64,000 nucleotides of DNA, from NCBI GenBank assembly GCA_947631955.1, contig CANRNJ010000002.1, positions 1 through 64,000 on the forward strand, written 5' to 3'. Every line of letters starts with the position of its first letter. The stretch's first letter is position 1. This DNA is from an uncultured Lachnospiraceae bacterium (GTDB lineage: Bacteria; Bacillota; Clostridia; Lachnospirales; Lachnospiraceae). A model generated the notes under the pieces. That model had not been told where the DNA came from, ran no database searches, and was given only the letters and a program-made list of their open reading frames with translations. A program made the translations under genes and the position numbers. This document shows positions 9,591 through 17,058 of the stretch, in pieces.

Positions 9591-9950
9591 TTAAAATCCT
9601 TCCTCTCCATCCCGGTATTGTTCTCCCTCTTCTGAAACGCTGCTGATTCCAAACAATATCTGCATAAAATCCTGTTTTCCGTTCAAAACACGGACAATCT
9701 TCACGATTTCATTTTCCATTCGATAAAAAACATAATCCGGCTTGACTGCCAGATAACGGTAATCCGTCGGATATTCTATCGTATTCCCCAAATCAAGTCC
9801 CTCATCAGGGAACATTTCCAACTGCTTGATAGTTGACAGGATATCCCGAAGGCATACTTTCGCTCTTTCTTCCCTGAACTGATCTGTCACATATCTTTTG
9901 ATTTCCTGCAGATCCTCTAATGCTTTTGGTGCATATTTTAACTTTGGCAT
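9591..9950 (-). CDS. RelE/ParE-family toxin
   Basis: 119 aa. The fold is recognisable from KYAPKALEDLQEIKRYVTDQ at the N-terminus, the central LGNTIEYPTDYRYLAVKPDYVFYRME strands and KIVRVLNGKQDFMQILFG at the C-terminus, the usual ParE/RelE pattern. It starts 1 nt after the antitoxin stop codon, the standard antitoxin-first operon. Such toxins block gyrase (ParE) or cleave mRNA on the ribosome (RelE); which applies cannot be told. The last about 15 residues are an acidic tail not typical of the family. Confidence 0.85.
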   Translation of the reverse strand: MPKLKYAPKALEDLQEIKRYVTDQFREERAKVCLRDILSTIKQLEMFPDEGLDLGNTIEYPTDYRYLAVKPDYVFYRMENEIVKIVRVLNGKQDFMQILFGISSVSEEGEQYRDGEEGF

Positions 9951-9951
9951 A

Positions 9952-10197
9952 CTATAACCCCAATGCAGCCTCCGCTTCCTCTGCCGCCAACCAACCTTGC
10001 TCTCTGGCTGACTGCTCTCCTTCCTCCAATTTCGCCATGAGCTGCAGCGCGGCTTTCAGCCTGTCCAATTCCCCTATCTCTACAATGGCGTATGCGCCCC
10101 TTCCATTTCGTGTCAGATATACCGGCTGATCTTTTTTCACTTCTTTCAGCACTTCCGTATAATTTCGCAAATCCGATATAGGCTTAATGTTTGGCAT
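9952..10197 (-). CDS. Phd/YefM-family antitoxin
   Basis: 81 aa. N-terminal Phd/YefM DNA-binding domain, NIKPISDLRNYTEVLKEVKKDQPVYLTRNGRGAYAIVEI, followed by a helical, acidic C-terminal region that would wrap the toxin. The start is set at 10197 because AAGGAG lies 9 nt before it; the upstream ATG at 10206 directly abuts that ribosome-binding site. It forms an operon with the RelE/ParE toxin and is expected to repress it. Confidence 0.88.
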   Translation of the reverse strand: MPNIKPISDLRNYTEVLKEVKKDQPVYLTRNGRGAYAIVEIGELDRLKAALQLMAKLEEGEQSAREQGWLAAEEAEAALGL

Positions 10198-10368
10198 AGT
10201 CTTCATCTCCTTTACATTATAGTATATGCGGTTCGAATATAAATAGCAAGGAAATTAACATGCGAATTTACAGCGTGATATGCAGTAAGAAAATATTGTA
10301 CTTTTTCTCAGAACATTGATATAAAATTCTTTCTGACACTATATTTAACAATCACAAAGGAGAAACTT

Positions 10369-11289
10369 ATGAACACACTACAATCGCAAATATCCGACTA
10401 CCTGCATTTCTGCCAGATCCACAGAAGACTTGATCTCAAAACACTGAAAGCATACCAGATCGATCTAAGGCAGTTCGCCGGTCAAGTCACTAAAAACGAC
10501 GCCCAAACAATCAGCCCCGGCGATTTAGAAAATTTTATTGCACACCTGCACCAAAACTACAAGTCTAAAACAGTAAAAAGAAAGATCGCATCTCTCAAAG
10601 CTTTCTTCCACTATCTCGAATACAAAGATCTGATCACAATAAATCCATTCAACAAAATCCAAATCAAATTCCGGGAGCCTTCCGTCTTACCCAAAACCAT
10701 ACCGCTTCCCATTGTTGAAGCTTTATTATCCACCATATACAGCCAACAGCTTACGGCTCCCACGCCCTATCAAAGGAAAAACGCTCTGAGAGATGCCGCT
10801 GTCATAGAAACGCTCTTTGCAACCGGAATGAGGATTTCAGAGCTGTGCTCTCTGCGGCTTCAGGATGTGAATCTCTACGAATATACTATCCTGATCCATG
10901 GAAAAGGCTCTAAACAACGTATGATCCAGATCGGGAACGCCTCTGTCATCCAGACTTTACAAAAATACCAGGAAATGTATGCCCGGCCGATCCACAACTC
11001 CGGCCATTTCTTCGTCAATCAGGACGGCAGCGTATTTTCCGACCAGTCAGTCCGGCGGATGATAAACAAATACGCCGCTCTTTCCGGCATAGAACAGCAC
11101 ATCACCCCTCACATGTTCCGTCATACTTTTGCCACTTCTCTGTTGGAAGCGGATGTGGATATAAGGTATATTCAGGAGATGTTGGGACACAGTTCGATCA
11201 ATATCACGGAAATCTATACGCATGTCGCAACGGCAAAGCAGCGGGATATCCTTGCGACCAGACATCCGAGGAACCGTTTTAAGATATAA
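10369..11289 (+). CDS. Tyrosine recombinase (XerC/XerD type)
   Basis: 306 aa. The N-terminal SAM-like core-binding domain (residues 1-90) is followed by the catalytic domain with the full set: Arg155 (TGMRISELCSL), Lys182 (GKGSKQR), His248 and Arg251 (HMFRHTFA), His274 (LGHSS) and nucleophile Tyr283 (EIYTHV). AAAGGAG precedes the ATG. Its terminator ends 2 bp before the left 22-bp inverted repeat of the neighbouring two-gene cassette, so it is the obvious candidate to recombine those repeats. Recombinases of this type in Clostridia are known to invert promoter switches. It could instead be a relic of island integration; the two roles are not exclusive. Confidence 0.92.
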   Translation: MNTLQSQISDYLHFCQIHRRLDLKTLKAYQIDLRQFAGQVTKNDAQTISPGDLENFIAHLHQNYKSKTVKRKIASLKAFFHYLEYKDLITINPFNKIQIKFREPSVLPKTIPLPIVEALLSTIYSQQLTAPTPYQRKNALRDAAVIETLFATGMRISELCSLRLQDVNLYEYTILIHGKGSKQRMIQIGNASVIQTLQKYQEMYARPIHNSGHFFVNQDGSVFSDQSVRRMINKYAALSGIEQHITPHMFRHTFATSLLEADVDIRYIQEMLGHSSINITEIYTHVATAKQRDILATRHPRNRFKI

Positions 11290-11296
11290 GGTGAGC

Positions 11297-11335
11297 GGGC
11301 AGCAATTTCGTTGGGGATTGCTGCCTGGTGTTTTT
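11297..11335 (+). terminator. Strong terminator of the recombinase gene
   Basis: GGCAGCAAT (11298-11306) pairs with ATTGCTGCC (11317-11325), followed by TGGTGTTTTT. It lies directly outside the left inverted repeat, so readthrough from the recombinase gene into the cassette should be blocked. Confidence 0.85.
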
Positions 11336-11336
11336 G

Positions 11337-11358
11337 ATGGATAATAAGGAATTATCCG
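11337..11358. repeat. Left 22-bp inverted repeat of the two-gene cassette
   Basis: Perfect inverse of 16727-16748. The element contains 7-bp arms GGATAAT and ATTATCC around a 5-bp centre AAGGA. This arm-spacer-arm layout is typical of a tyrosine-recombinase crossover site. No third copy was found in the window. Confidence 0.92.
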
Positions 11359-11388
11359 TTGGAATTAAGATTTATATGGGAGGAGCAT

Positions 11389-13758
11389 ATGAAAAATCTT
11401 TTAATCATTTCTCTGCATGCAGATCCTTCAATGCCGCCCGGAGTTGGTGAGTGGGGTGGCACGCACACTTATATGAGAGAACTTTTAACAGAATTATATG
11501 ATACTGATTATAATGTAATTTTAATAACAAGAAAAGTATATCCAAATGAGGAAACTGTCGAACAAATATCACCATTCTGTCGTATTTTACGGCTTACACT
11601 CGGCATTTTTGAAAATTTTGATAAACGTGACTTGTATGAATTACATGAAGTTACCTTTCTTCAAGTCCTTGATAAATTAAATGAATTAAAATTTATTCCA
11701 GATATTATTCATAGTGTATATTGGAATTCTGGACATTTGGCAATGCGCTTATCAAATCTATGGAATATTCCATATGTACATAGCGTAATTTCGAATGGAA
11801 AAGGAAGGAATGAGCATGGTGCCATCGGAACCGCCCCACATCGTATTGAGATTGAAACACAAGTATTTACTCATGCTTCTATTATTTTATGTGTAGCAGA
11901 AAGTGAAAAGGCCGAAATTTGCAAGTATTATGAAATACAACCTTCAAAAGTTGTTGTCGCAGGACAATATATCCATCCGGCTTTTATATCTGCGTCACAT
12001 GATTCTTTTGGTTCGCCGCGTAAATCAGGTATCCATTATAAAGTTGAATCCATTTATTTTTCTCCTTATCTCCAAACAGAAATAACCACCGGGGAATGGT
12101 GGAAAAAGCAAGTATTTACATATACAGGTAGACTTAGTATAGATAAGGGGATATCATATATTGTGCAGGCATGGTATCATCTTCAACAAAAATACCATAA
12201 ATCGTGTCCGCCTCTATGGATAATTGGAGGGAGCCCCGCAGATATAGAAAATATCCGTTTTCAGCTCGGAATATCAGAACGAGAACTATCAAGATTAGAG
12301 AATAACAGACAAATTATATGGTGGGGATTTTTAGATGAAAATGGTATTAGCACTATTTATAGTAAAACATTGGCATTAATAACACATTCAAAATATGAGC
12401 CGGGCGGACGTGTCGCAGTAGAAGCAATGTGTGAAGGAATACCTGTTTTAGCGACCCCTAATGGATTTGCACTAGATGTTATTCATAATTGGATTAATGG
12501 TTTTTTGATTCCGTACGGTGACATTTCTACACTCGAAGTACGAATGGAACATTTTATAAAACAACCTTACCTATCAAACTGTATGGGGCAACAAGCCCGT
12601 CAGACTGGGTTAGACACTTTAAGGAACTGGAACTTTAGAAATAAACATTTAGCTGCCTATGTAGCTGCAATTGAAGGCAATGCATTTAAGGAAGACTCTC
12701 ATAAAAAGCCTGAATTAAATCCTAATTTCAGAATACCATTAACTTATCCATTTAATATGTATTTGGTTGATAAATCTGATATTTTACAGATTATGCATGA
12801 CAACGGAATTACAGATGTTATTTCCATTGTGAATTGCTCAAATAGTTCTTCTGCAAGTTGGACTGTAGAATGTTCTGAGAGAAATTACTTTATAAAAATG
12901 CCCTATGACCGAATGAATTACTCTTCCCTTTGGTCAGAAGAAAAAGAACAACCACTAGTTATTAGTTCCTTAAAGCGTTACCGTGCCGAACTTGGAGCAA
13001 CTGCATTTCACGGAATTCCAACGCTGCTAGGAAAGCACGAGCCAAGACATGCACTCATTAGGGAGAAATATGAGAACATGGATATTCCTTTAGATCAGCA
13101 ATTAACTTATGCTCTACATGCGATAAATAATTTTTATGAGAGTAATCCTCTTTCTAACCCCCAATACATGCAACATCTAAATAAACTAATACAGCAAGAA
13201 ACAAATTATCAAAAAATTGATAATTTTTACAAAAAAATAGTATCCTCTAATTATCCATGGCAATATTATTATAATGATTATTCTCTCCGAGTAGAATTAT
13301 TGCGTTGGAACCATTATTACAACCTTTTATCCACAGTACAGCAGGAGCTTATTATGTCAATATATCCAAAAGCATTTCATGCAGCAAACACGCTCGCGTT
13401 GGAAGAATCTAATTTGCAACCAGTATTAAATCATGGTGGATTCGATTACAAAAATCTTATTTTCAATCCGCAGGTTATTTTATTGGATAACGAAAAACTT
13501 CACCCAGGTTGGCCTGGAATTGATTATGCCGACTTTCTTCTTGCTTTTGTAGTAAAAAACTATGTTTCAAAAGAATCAATAAATTTATGGGAAAATATAC
13601 TTAAATCAGTGCCTAATTTGCATATTTCGAACTCAATACTTGGAGGATGGCTCCTTTTAGGTATTTGCAAAGAATTGGTATCAGAAGCAGCACGTTTAAA
13701 CCCTATTTCCACATCATTAAAAAAGAGAAGTAACATCTTGTTGCAGATCTTCCAATAA
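11389..13758 (+). CDS. GT4 glycosyltransferase fused to a kinase-like domain
   Basis: 789 aa, cytoplasmic. Residues 1 to about 430 form a GT-B glycosyltransferase of family 4, with N-terminal GVGEWGGTHTYMRELL, TGRLSIDKGI and the donor-site E-x7-E in KYEPGGRVAVEAM. The C-terminal part (about 470-789) resembles aminoglycoside/choline-kinase folds: NHGGFDYKNLIFN aligns with the Brenner loop, followed by an Asp in ILLDNEKLHPGWPGIDYADFL. The usual catalytic Asp two residues after His is Gly, so it may be a pseudokinase. Start 11389 is set by GGGAGGA 6 nt upstream. No promoter is visible between it and the adjacent inverted repeat. Its stop codon abuts that of the convergent STAND gene. Substrate unknown; AT-rich, so probably acquired. 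Confidence 0.75.
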   Translation: MKNLLIISLHADPSMPPGVGEWGGTHTYMRELLTELYDTDYNVILITRKVYPNEETVEQISPFCRILRLTLGIFENFDKRDLYELHEVTFLQVLDKLNELKFIPDIIHSVYWNSGHLAMRLSNLWNIPYVHSVISNGKGRNEHGAIGTAPHRIEIETQVFTHASIILCVAESEKAEICKYYEIQPSKVVVAGQYIHPAFISASHDSFGSPRKSGIHYKVESIYFSPYLQTEITTGEWWKKQVFTYTGRLSIDKGISYIVQAWYHLQQKYHKSCPPLWIIGGSPADIENIRFQLGISERELSRLENNRQIIWWGFLDENGISTIYSKTLALITHSKYEPGGRVAVEAMCEGIPVLATPNGFALDVIHNWINGFLIPYGDISTLEVRMEHFIKQPYLSNCMGQQARQTGLDTLRNWNFRNKHLAAYVAAIEGNAFKEDSHKKPELNPNFRIPLTYPFNMYLVDKSDILQIMHDNGITDVISIVNCSNSSSASWTVECSERNYFIKMPYDRMNYSSLWSEEKEQPLVISSLKRYRAELGATAFHGIPTLLGKHEPRHALIREKYENMDIPLDQQLTYALHAINNFYESNPLSNPQYMQHLNKLIQQETNYQKIDNFYKKIVSSNYPWQYYYNDYSLRVELLRWNHYYNLLSTVQQELIMSIYPKAFHAANTLALEESNLQPVLNHGGFDYKNLIFNPQVILLDNEKLHPGWPGIDYADFLLAFVVKNYVSKESINLWENILKSVPNLHISNSILGGWLLLGICKELVSEAARLNPISTSLKKRSNILLQIFQ

Positions 13759-16707
13759 TCAGCCAGTTACTAATACTATGCCGTTACAGTATTTAACCTT
13801 ATTCTGAAAGCATTTTTTCCAATTTATTGCCTGACAAAGTTGGTTAAAATCATCCCGTATTGAAATACTTTCAAGCCGGATTAAAATGCTTTCTACATCC
13901 CCTTCTAACTCATGTAAATACATTAATATTAATAATAAACTCTGATAAGGCACTGATATGTTGTCTGATTTTATTTTCTTGGTAAAATCAGGCAACAAGA
14001 TATTTACAACCTGTAGAATCAGGGCTTTTGCTTTCTTTTTATCGCCTTGGTCTAATAATACACTTGCTTGGTTCAGTAGGACTCTCCATCTATAAATAGC
14101 GGCTTTTGAAAGTTCCAAATAAAAATCACTTTCTTTAAAAAGATTCAACCCCTCTATATATTTGCCATTAGCCACTTTACAGCAACCTAATATATTTAAC
14201 GCCCTTCCCATTTGAATATGAATACCTAGTGTAGAGGCAATGCTCAAGCTTTCCTCCGCCCATATTTTTGCAATGTCATATTCTTGTGCTAAGAAATTGG
14301 ACATAGCAATATCAATTCTTGTATGTATAATTTCCAAAAATGGATAGGCTTTCCCTTTTACAATATCTAAAAGTTCACTATATTTTTTTACTGCTTCTAA
14401 TGGTTTTTCTTTAAGTAGGCGATTTCCTTCCTGCGATAAATAGGCGGCGCGAGCGTTGTATGACTCAGGATATTTTTCAATTCCTTCTTTAAAAAAATTT
14501 GTGGCGGCATTCCCTCCTTCAAGCATTTTTAAAGATAAACCATGTGCAGAATATATACGCCCTACAATATCATCGTTCAAATTAAAAATACAAAATATAT
14601 TTGGCAAATTATCATATAGTTCTTTACTAATCCGATACGCGTCATCAAACAATCCTGCTATAAATTTTTTATGCCATGTAAATAAAGAATAATCATACCA
14701 TTCCTTGCAGGATGTATAATCAGGAGCGTGTAATATAATTGACTCTTTTGCTAGTTGATAAAAATATTCATATTCCTTTTCATTATCTGCATGAAGTTCA
14801 TATATACAATGTAAGATTTTTATCAAAACATGAACTTTCATACTTTTTTCGCTAGTTGAAAGTATCCTTTTATTATTTACTTTTTCAATATATTTTTTAC
14901 CAACTGCTATTGATTGTTTATATTGTTGCGAGTCTTCATACAGCGACATAACATACATTGTATAATCACCAATATTATTATCTTGTTCTAATATATATAG
15001 TAATTCTAACTGGATAAATGGATACTTGGCATCATTTTTTTCTTGTATAATGGGCAATAATTTTTGTGCTGCTTTCATTTGTTCCAATGGTTGCGATGTT
15101 GCTTTTATTGCTGATAAAAGCCGCAAATGGGAACACTGAAGATTATTATCTTTAAGCTTAAACAACCTACTATCAATGGCAATCTCATATATTTCATCTG
15201 TATGCGTTCCCCAATAATCGCTTAATAATATATAAGGAATTTCACCGTTTAAAAGCAATGTCATTTCTAGCAATTCTGAAATTAAAGAATTGGTTCTGTA
15301 TTTTGAAATCAGAGAAACTGCTTCTCTATTGGCATCAATACCTTGATCATTCCAAAAAATTTCGCGTTCCTCATTAGACATTTTCTTCAATTCCCTAACA
15401 TTTACTGAAATCTGTTTAAGATACTCTAATGCGTTTTTAATTTTAAGTGGATTGTTTTCTAGCATATCACCGAATTGTTTACAAGAATCCTTATCCATTT
15501 TTATGTGTTTTCTAATAAGTTTATATATCACATCTTCAGATAATGGCTCTACAGAATATACAAGTGTATTTTTCTTGATTATCTTGTAATAATCATTGGA
15601 ACATTTAATATCATCCGCCAGAATAAACGGTTTTCTGAGTTCAAGCAGAATCCGTATTCCATTTTTTCTCATTTGTTCAATAAGTTCTAAGAGAAAATCT
15701 ACACATTCTATGGTAAGTGAATCCACATTTTCAAAAAAAATCGCTAAATGAAAAAAATCGCTTTTATCTTGTAATATGGCATTCAAATATTTGAGCAGAT
15801 AATGACGATAAATATCATTTGCTCCTTCATACTCATAAGTATCCATTACCAAAATATGCTTAACAGCATTTGAGATATCTGCATCAACACAATCTCCATT
15901 TATCGCTATTAATCTGTCAATATACATATTTAAATTTATATCTTCTAAAACGGCATCTAAAGAAACACCCCAAACTGCTTCTAAAACTTTTAAATATAAT
16001 ATTCTGGAACTAGTACATAAACTCAAATTAATTTTTTGTGTATCAAATTTCTTTTTCTGTAATTCATCACATATCTTATCAATCAGAACGCTTTTCCCAA
16101 TTCCCTCTGTGCCAGAAATAATAATTTTGTTATTTGAAATAAGGACTTCATTCACTATATTTGATATAAGTTCCTTCCTTTGAGCATCAAGTAAACAAGT
16201 GTCTTTTGTTATGGTATTGTTTGATTGGTGAATTTCATGTGCATCCAGAGAGATAATTTTACTTTCTAAATTAGACAGGCAAGATTCGTTTGTCTTGCAG
16301 GCTTTTATTAAATATGATTTATTATTATGAATATAATCCTTGAGTTTTATATTATCTACGCTTACGATTGCTAATTCTGTTCGCTTATTGAAATTTTCAA
16401 TTTCTTTTTTTGTTTGTGGTGCTAATTCTATATTAGTAGCAATATACAATTTATTAGCAGAAGAATTAAAAGCAATAATAATCGCCTTTGCACAATCACT
16501 TAATGGTAATGAAGATTGTGATTCCCTGTATTTGGCTTCCATCATTATTTTTCTATATAGTGCTTTATTGTCAGAAGGAATGATCCATATGCCATCATAT
16601 CCTGAATCATGCGAATCTACGGTATGTTCACTTTTTATAGTTTTTTTATACAACTGTGAAACATACTCATAGGCTACACTCTCAAATAGTTTCCATGTTT
16701 TATTCAT
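13759..16707 (-). CDS. STAND ATPase with N-terminal PD-(D/E)XK nuclease domain and TPR-like C-terminus
   Basis: 982 aa. Residues 1 to about 130 look like an Mrr-type restriction-endonuclease domain: Asp38 in SGYDGIW and Glu57-x-Lys59 in MEAKYRES give the PD-(D/E)XK site. A STAND/NACHT-like ATPase follows, with Walker A GTEGIGKS (about 199-206), acidic LAIFFENVDSL in the Walker B position, and winged-helix-like regions. The C-terminal 400 residues are helical repeats with TPR character (ALNILGCCKVANGKYIEGLNLF). The architecture is that of bacterial NLR-like defence proteins, where the repeats sense phage and the nuclease is the effector; that role is inferred. ATG 16707 is preferred (AGGTGA 5 nt upstream) over a GTG at 16716. 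A promoter outside the right inverted repeat reads into it. Confidence 0.75.
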   Translation of the reverse strand: MNKTWKLFESVAYEYVSQLYKKTIKSEHTVDSHDSGYDGIWIIPSDNKALYRKIMMEAKYRESQSSLPLSDCAKAIIIAFNSSANKLYIATNIELAPQTKKEIENFNKRTELAIVSVDNIKLKDYIHNNKSYLIKACKTNESCLSNLESKIISLDAHEIHQSNNTITKDTCLLDAQRKELISNIVNEVLISNNKIIISGTEGIGKSVLIDKICDELQKKKFDTQKINLSLCTSSRILYLKVLEAVWGVSLDAVLEDINLNMYIDRLIAINGDCVDADISNAVKHILVMDTYEYEGANDIYRHYLLKYLNAILQDKSDFFHLAIFFENVDSLTIECVDFLLELIEQMRKNGIRILLELRKPFILADDIKCSNDYYKIIKKNTLVYSVEPLSEDVIYKLIRKHIKMDKDSCKQFGDMLENNPLKIKNALEYLKQISVNVRELKKMSNEEREIFWNDQGIDANREAVSLISKYRTNSLISELLEMTLLLNGEIPYILLSDYWGTHTDEIYEIAIDSRLFKLKDNNLQCSHLRLLSAIKATSQPLEQMKAAQKLLPIIQEKNDAKYPFIQLELLYILEQDNNIGDYTMYVMSLYEDSQQYKQSIAVGKKYIEKVNNKRILSTSEKSMKVHVLIKILHCIYELHADNEKEYEYFYQLAKESIILHAPDYTSCKEWYDYSLFTWHKKFIAGLFDDAYRISKELYDNLPNIFCIFNLNDDIVGRIYSAHGLSLKMLEGGNAATNFFKEGIEKYPESYNARAAYLSQEGNRLLKEKPLEAVKKYSELLDIVKGKAYPFLEIIHTRIDIAMSNFLAQEYDIAKIWAEESLSIASTLGIHIQMGRALNILGCCKVANGKYIEGLNLFKESDFYLELSKAAIYRWRVLLNQASVLLDQGDKKKAKALILQVVNILLPDFTKKIKSDNISVPYQSLLLILMYLHELEGDVESILIRLESISIRDDFNQLCQAINWKKCFQNKVKYCNGIVLVTG

Positions 16708-16726
16708 AATTCTCACCTGTTTCTAG

Positions 16727-16748
16727 CGGATAATTCCTTATTATCCAT
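16727..16748. repeat. Right 22-bp inverted repeat of the two-gene cassette
   Basis: Exact reverse complement of 11337-11358. It lies 19 bp upstream of the STAND gene start codon and within the predicted 5' leader of its transcript. Confidence 0.92.
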
Positions 16749-16772: not shown

Positions 16773-16801
16773 ATATTACAACAAACCATAGACACTTTCA
16801 A
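16773..16801 (-). promoter_or_regulatory. Promoter outside the right inverted repeat, pointing into the cassette
   Basis: On the minus strand, TTGAAA (16796-16801) and TAATAT (16773-16778) are separated by exactly 17 bp. The predicted start site, near 16766, lies about 18 bp before the inverted repeat. Whichever gene stands next to the right repeat would be expressed from it. Confidence 0.6.
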
Positions 16802-16829: not shown

Positions 16830-17058
16830 ACCCCCCCCCACATATCCTTCAATCTTCTGCACAAAATATTGTGCATTTCTCAGCTGTTCTTCTGCCTCTG
16901 CTTTTCTGCCGCATAAAAATCATCATAATCCGATTTTTCTCTGCAGAGCGAACTGTCTTTAATGATTGCCGCCAGTCCTCTATCCAGAACTTCTGTTTTT
17001 AAATATTCTTTGGCAAAAAAGGCGATCACTCTGCCAGTTCTTTCAGGCTGCCTTCCAT
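16830..17058 (-). pseudogene. Broken HEPN-domain gene, partner of the downstream MNT gene
   Basis: From an ATG at 17058 overlapping the end of the MNT gene, the frame reads MEGSLKELAE and then stops. Remaining sequence encodes RVIAFFAKEYLKTEVLDRGL and SDYDDFYAAEK, then after a frameshift EAEEQLRNAQYFVQKIEGYV, which is typical of UPF0332-type HEPN proteins. The N-terminal part is largely deleted. The remnant runs into a tract of about nine C near 16831. This is the second dead HEPN partner in the island. Confidence 0.75.

Follow-up and report, generated by a model that had tools for sequence, protein, structure and literature searches.

The best-known examples of phase variation concern surface structures and restriction specificity. 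In the G segment of phage Mu and the C segment of phage P1, a serine recombinase inverts tail-fibre cargo, and the switches controlled by RecV of Clostridioides difficile are small regulatory segments. Tail-fibre inversion in P1 and Mu is named in the accessible part of PMC5903667. According to the accessible part of PMC11892184, inverton group 139 with invertase group 35 of hCom2 gut Clostridia comprises 33 invertons (32 in Clostridia) called from reads; their repeat motif is novel, and a tyrosine recombinase is tightly linked to them.

Here we describe a locus of an uncultured Lachnospiraceae bacterium which, judged from sequence comparison, would be a two-headed invertible cassette: an adjacent recombinase would flip the segment, and an outer promoter would serve whichever arm adjoins it (estimated probability of roughly three in four). 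Inversion of this 5.4-kb segment is probable, and it would place either an antiviral-type sensor or a sugar-transfer enzyme behind a single promoter outside the repeats.

Organization of the locus

The window, that is, the whole stretch of DNA that was analyzed, comprises 64,000 nucleotides (contig CANRNJ010000002.1, positions 1 to 64,000). The features that concern us are listed by window coordinates and strand:

10369..11289, + strand: tyrosine recombinase, 306 aa, complete; proposed invertase (Phage_integrase Pfam 2.8e-42)
11296..11334, + strand: terminator-like stem and T run, from the recombinase to the left site (14-pair stem at 11296-11327)
11337..11358, + strand: left inverted repeat, proposed crossover site (28 nt at 93%, reaching 11364)
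11389..13758, + strand: family-4 glycosyltransferase, 789 aa from ATG (Glycos_transf_1 5.3e-22)
13759..16707, - strand: nuclease-like, STAND ATPase and TPR protein, 982 aa (AAA_7 and weak TPR Pfam matches)
16727..16748, - strand: right inverted repeat, proposed crossover site (inverted copy of the left)
16773..16801, - strand: promoter-like TTGAAA-17-TAATAT outside the right repeat, pointing inward (sequence match)
16831..16839, - strand: run of nine G, upstream of the promoter-like site

As a preliminary description of this DNA had stated, perfect 22-bp inverted repeats enclose two convergent genes. The 22-mer occurs in the window as these two inverted copies, against an expectation of 0 in shuffled sequence, and a 20-mer of the repeat is confined to the same two places in the 3.11-Mb genome when up to two mismatches are allowed. 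Similarity extends to 28 nt at 93% identity (11337-11364 and 16721-16748). The proposed 7-bp arms and 5-bp centre can be read directly in the repeat (GGATAAT-AAGGA-ATTATCC, i.e., 7-5-7), and the stop codons of the convergent genes do abut, at 13758/13759. The 5.4-kb segment holds only the two cargo genes and is flanked by inverted repeats as an inverton is. A transposon with terminal inverted repeats was considered and rejected, since the recombinase lies outside the repeats and the two cargo genes alone lie inside. Stretches with the exact 19-bp site numbered five in the genome_contigs collection and one in the viral_contigs collection, with a single match in each. A ParE/Phd-type toxin-antitoxin pair is located at 9591-10206, just 5' of the recombinase.

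The left arm encodes the glycosyltransferase, which had been described as a glycosyltransferase-kinase fusion. The kinase half of this claim found no support, as the C-terminal half of the protein has no Pfam match at E 0.01 and its predicted fold (pLDDT 41.5) is unusable.

The right arm adjoins the outer promoter-like site in the present orientation, and the prediction of a nuclease-STAND gene agrees with what we found there. The D..ExK and Walker motifs of its product are invariant in seven aligned sequences, and the F-E, D, ExK and Walker motifs are common to the window protein and six cassette homologs. The nuclease assignment rests on this shared motif: one of the seven aligned sequences matches Mrr_cat well, and the window protein has no nuclease Pfam match. 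The best PDB matches of its model (pLDDT 67) were a STAND-TPR protein and phage-portal-bound Avs4 (8dgf), both with low TM-scores. The protein thus presents the nuclease, STAND NTPase and TPR sensor parts of an Avs/STAND protein, and it falls outside the catalogued defence models of PADLOC and NCBIfam, with no match at E 0.001.

The recombinase and its site family

The complete tyrosine recombinase that had been noted outside the left repeat is indeed intact. Besides the Phage_integrase model it fits a SAM-like Pfam model, and residues R155, K179, H248, R251, H274 and Y283, which we take to be the catalytic residues of a tyrosine recombinase, are invariant across 12 aligned sequences; as in an inverton, an intact site-specific recombinase is linked to the sites. 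Identity as XerC or XerD was rejected because the protein scores under the NCBIfam cut-offs (XerD 247 vs. 330 bits, XerC 246 vs. 335 bits). An excising mobile cassette was also rejected, as inverted sites give inversion and the plasmid matches are below 60% identity (14/14 records), and an integron was set aside because the sites occur as inverted pairs. The top of 10 records in a phage collection was an unannotated fecal scaffold (61%).

Homologs of the recombinase are present in 34/60 genomes of a genus sample (E <=1e-40), 39/299 genomes of a family sample (1e-60) and 24/295 genomes of an order sample (1e-70), with the genome of the window counted in each. Near these genes we sought the site pattern [AG]ATAAT-N5-[AG]TTAT (GATAAT-N5-R-TTAT). 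Within the genus, where 34 of 36 recombinase matches were counted (a contig-edge partial match and one at 34% identity were excluded), a site lies within 200 bp downstream of the recombinase in 21/34 homologs and within 700 bp upstream in 0/34 (over a shorter span where the contig begins sooner); 13/34 have no site within 700 bp. Within the family, for the 29 of 41 non-window matches that were given loci, a site lies within 1500 bp downstream in 19/29 and upstream in 1/29.

Together, 43 distinct recombinase-proximal sites yield the consensus TGAYGGATAATNNNNNRTTATCCGTY, in which the letters within the search pattern were fixed by the search and the flanking T, G, A, G, C and T (70-91%) were free. 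The arms are symmetric about a variable centre, as those of a tyrosine-recombinase crossover site would be. A relaxed pattern (GGATAAN7TTATCC) had matches in at least 36 of 60 genomes and its reversed control in at least 7, among the matches listed; several recurring matches that resemble ordinary gene sequence were not counted as sites.

Five loci (L053, L094, L103, L099, and L100) have double sites about 34-46 bp apart with differing centres, and those of L094 form two nested inverted pairs. On a 126-kb IMG/VR contig (L186), a recombinase of the same family (63%) adjoins inverted sites at 10320 and 13673, one of them within an ORF; by eye, this could be tail-gene switching. On another IMG/VR contig (L190, 1946-5479), the inverted repeats beside a distant recombinase (39%) enclose two genes, one of them convergent and NTPase-like, which extends this design to a more remote case.

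Two-gene segments in related genomes

Our search identified 33 segments bounded by two inverted sites, 25 of them with an adjacent recombinase and eight with no recombinase of the family on the examined stretch. These loci were reached through the recombinase or the site, independently of their cargo; the locus of genome G040 (L112) was met first through its glycosyltransferase and again through its recombinase. The ORFs are mechanical calls, and L163 was identified by its repeat. The arms are convergent in 33/33 segments, with stop codons at most 50 bp apart in 24/32; L050 carries one further gene that points outward and L161 a short additional ORF between the arms.

One arm encodes a STAND/AAA, SIR2 or TIR protein in 23/33 segments, as judged by Pfam (match at E 0.001) or by homology to a protein so matched; for L053, L103 and L104 the matches do not exceed Pfam's curated cut-off. 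The other arm mostly encodes an enzyme, belonging to an ATP-grasp cluster in 13/33 segments and to a family-2 glycosyltransferase cluster in 7/33 (c0, c1); SHMT-like, carbamoyltransferase, OTCase and radical SAM proteins are further types. The 10/33 segments without immune-type evidence comprise four with a TPR/unmatched family and an ATP-grasp protein, three with a pentapeptide protein and three with a larger protein without Pfam match. The family of an 805-aa NTPase is found in 1/299 genomes, namely in cassette L176 itself, and the X family (L055) in 0/391 of the class sample, a count that is not informative. Of 15 order-level stretches, three (L208, L209, and L213) show a site-bearing repeat pair around two convergent genes, and most of the others show no such pair.

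Promoter-like and terminator-like elements

Two elements had been predicted to frame the segment. The terminator before the left repeat is present as a terminator-like 14-pair stem followed by a T run, in a region with nine terminator-like sites vs. 3.3 in shuffles. The inward promoter with 17-bp spacing is present as a site outside the right repeat, although its strength is ordinary: it matches the promoter pattern at 9/12 positions and the region has 53 such sites vs. 33 in shuffles, so that it proves nothing alone.

We therefore consider the frame across relatives. Among 24 recombinase-bearing loci with a site pair, a main class of 15 has the site 43-118 bp past the recombinase. When the best promoter-like scores within 130 bp are compared, the far side outscores the recombinase side in 14/15 of these loci, with a tie in the remaining one (Wilcoxon p 0.0005); the best score tops 95% of single-base shuffles in 7/15 far-side flanks and 1/15 recombinase-side flanks. 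Conversely, a fold energy of -16 kcal/mol or lower in 60 nt is reached by 7/15 recombinase-side flanks and 0/15 far-side flanks. In the loci compared, the main class thus repeatedly combines stable stems next to the recombinase with a promoter-like site at the far outer end; exceptions lie outside this class. Six other loci have their site 160-620 bp away from the recombinase; four of them have the higher score on the recombinase side (clearly L060, L173 and L174, slightly L169), one is tied (L176) and one favors the far side (L112). The recombinase gene reaches or enters the site in L058, L163, L164 and L165, where the near arm could therefore be co-transcribed and both arms could be expressed.

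The nine consecutive G upstream of the window's promoter-like site have counterparts in L041 and L042, whose far flanks contain runs of 8-9 G. The locus is apparently syntenic in the three species, and slippage at these runs might add another layer of variation. L093, L094 and L095 have repeated GGCAAAAATTGTAG-like elements in the far flank, upstream of the promoter-like site and with a spacing of about 21 bp in L093; by eye, they are possible regulator sites. Also by eye, a Sir2-HerA-like gene pair lies upstream of the segment in L096 and L112, reading towards it.

Comparative evidence for inversion

Among the 21 genus contigs with a recombinase and a site, 11 end within 111 bp past the site (10 of them within 44 bp), where 0.13 would be expected. 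None of the 13 contigs without a nearby site ends within 250 bp of the recombinase; two of them (G319 and G335) have sites further out, again at the contig end. In the family, the contig ends no more than 105 bp beyond a site in 6/19 loci that have one; among 10 loci lacking a site, one ends 127 bp past the recombinase. Since repeats this short should not break an assembly, such ends would reflect two read-supported continuations; it is possible that contig breaks at sites have causes other than inversion. Two contigs, G324:C69 (4822 bp) and G346:C66 (5006 bp), consist of one segment each with a site at both ends.

Orientation differs between homologous segments. In 12 pairs of recombinase-bearing segments with the same families on both arms, seven have the same and five the opposite orientation with respect to the recombinase, and the five opposite cases trace to three gene pairs, namely the window type, the Thoeris type and X/ATP-grasp (L110 and L167). 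It had been suggested that genomes be searched for the window's gene pair between inverted repeats, and two such cases were found. G040, which belongs to another genus, has homologs of the two window genes (identities of 41% and 27% over the best tblastn stretches) inside a pair of inverted sites; there the STAND gene adjoins the recombinase, whereas in the window the glycosyltransferase adjoins it. In G323, a third homologous pair (30% and 22%) is likewise located between inverted sites. Both orientations thus occur in nature, as homologous pairs across species and not as one segment within one species. Opposite orientations across species could also stem from independent captures. Overall, these comparisons make inversion well supported.

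Proposed mechanism and alternative explanations

In the mechanism that we propose, the tyrosine recombinase would recombine the two inverted sites (about 10-bp arms and a 7-bp centre) and flip the 5.4-kb segment. The main entry of transcription would be the promoter outside the right site, the left site being shielded by the terminator. In the present state the nuclease-STAND-TPR arm would be expressed and the glycosyltransferase off, and inversion would swap them; given convergent arms with abutting stops, an antisense transcript would run through the silent arm. From these sequences we infer that inversion takes place within a clone, that the recombinase catalyses it, that expression depends on orientation or is exclusive, and that the cassette has an antiphage function. 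The frame of recombinase, terminator, sites and promoter would be a platform that has received many AT-rich gene pairs in this bacterial family.

An alternative that is possible, if short of probable, is that the arms together make up a single two-component immune system (an enzyme or sensor plus an effector), in which case inversion would set which component is strongly made, or would arm the system only during the transition, instead of choosing between unrelated programmes. L042 encodes Thoeris ThsA (PADLOC 1.1e-59) and ThsB (5.6e-12) on opposite arms, its TIR protein scoring better on PDC-S66 (6.3e-21) than on ThsB; arms can therefore belong to one system. The two families of L042 recur in opposite orientation in L165, and L208 and L209 have similar-looking TIR and SIR2-type proteins on opposite arms, recognized by eye. 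Thoeris needs both ThsA and ThsB, so strictly alternative expression would be a paradox there, except if the near arm carries a promoter of its own or splitting the system is the purpose. Partners are also faithful, as 19 segment pairs share both arm families, whereas 1000 shuffles gave 3.2 such pairs on average and 12 at most; as far as family membership tells, the arms travel together, which is silent on joint action. However, the glycosyltransferase, carbamoyltransferase, SHMT-like and OTCase arms look to us like surface or metabolite modification, and a single promoter would leave at most one arm strongly expressed. For the switch as first proposed, inversion is supported by the contig ends, the one-segment contigs and G040, whereas the Thoeris cassette speaks against the simple choice between defence and glycan.

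A second alternative, which we regard as unlikely, is that the sites serve the capture or exchange of cassettes between loci, with inversion a by-product that has no regulatory role. Exchange is suggested by the window, G353 and G324, where a common recombinase and, by eye, NlpC/P60-like and AsnRS-like neighbours mark an apparently syntenic locus with three different cassettes; all three have a run of 8-9 G in the far flank. In addition, AT content is above that of the flanks in 27/30 segments, by a mean of 10 points (30 of 32 were compared), and the window glycosyltransferase has homologs in one other of 298 family genomes and one other of 76 genus genomes, both inside inverted sites. Against a role in capture alone, inverted sites do not excise, the one-sided frame of promoter and stem recurs in the main class, and start codons lie mostly within about 130 bp of the sites.

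A static locus, in which an old inverted repeat lies beside an unrelated recombinase and no inversion takes place at present, would fit with inversion being known here from assembled sequences alone, but is very improbable in view of the perfect repeats, the intact recombinase, the contig breaks of relatives and the opposite orientations.

Comparison with known systems

The window's STAND protein shares the nuclease-STAND-TPR architecture of antiphage sensors of the STAND type such as Avs4 (8dgf). To our knowledge, no Avs gene is known in an invertible segment.

The invertible two-headed cassette that we favor also extends to a wider and more tentative reading, to which we would give less than even odds: a family-wide platform of exchangeable immune flip-cassettes, with dozens of two-part systems of which one half at a time is strongly expressed. 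If so, a STAND/SIR2/TIR effector arm would be set against an enzyme arm that makes a signal or a modification, Thoeris included, and DNA inversion would divide immunity among sister cells or time its arming. A shared frame switching many NLR-like immune genes vs. partner enzymes would make bacterial immunity a coin-flip trait, and would provide a rule for finding unknown immune pairs, namely to inspect the DNA between sites.

DNA inversion has been linked to phage resistance, as we propose here, for the e14 P segment inverted by PinQ, which differs in being a cryptic prophage segment acted on by a serine recombinase (PMC12529663, accessible part). With the flagellar and cwpV switches of RecV, the locus has in common a tyrosine recombinase, short inverted repeats and a host among the Clostridia (PMC5903667, accessible part); our segment differs in containing a whole gene pair, and it is likened to these switches by description and not by the RecV sequence. 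The recombinase linked to inverton group 139 may be of the same family as that of the window, and if the group 139 motif is GATAAT-N5-R-TTAT, inversion in the family has already been observed from reads; the accessible text of PMC11892184 names no two-gene immune cassettes. Invertible two-gene immune cassettes were likewise not described among the literature matches listed, which covered titles and abstract openings, with supplements and most subscription journals outside.

The closest likeness is to the Mu G and P1 C segments, in which facing alternative gene sets are served by one outside promoter that reads the adjacent set. The window has the convergent genes and the one outside promoter (promoters here being sequence matches), but in place of a Gin/Hin serine invertase it has a tyrosine recombinase, its cargo is an immune-type gene plus an enzyme gene, and many gene pairs occupy the segment among relatives. 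The logic of the cassette would be that of the alternative-gene segments of Mu and P1.
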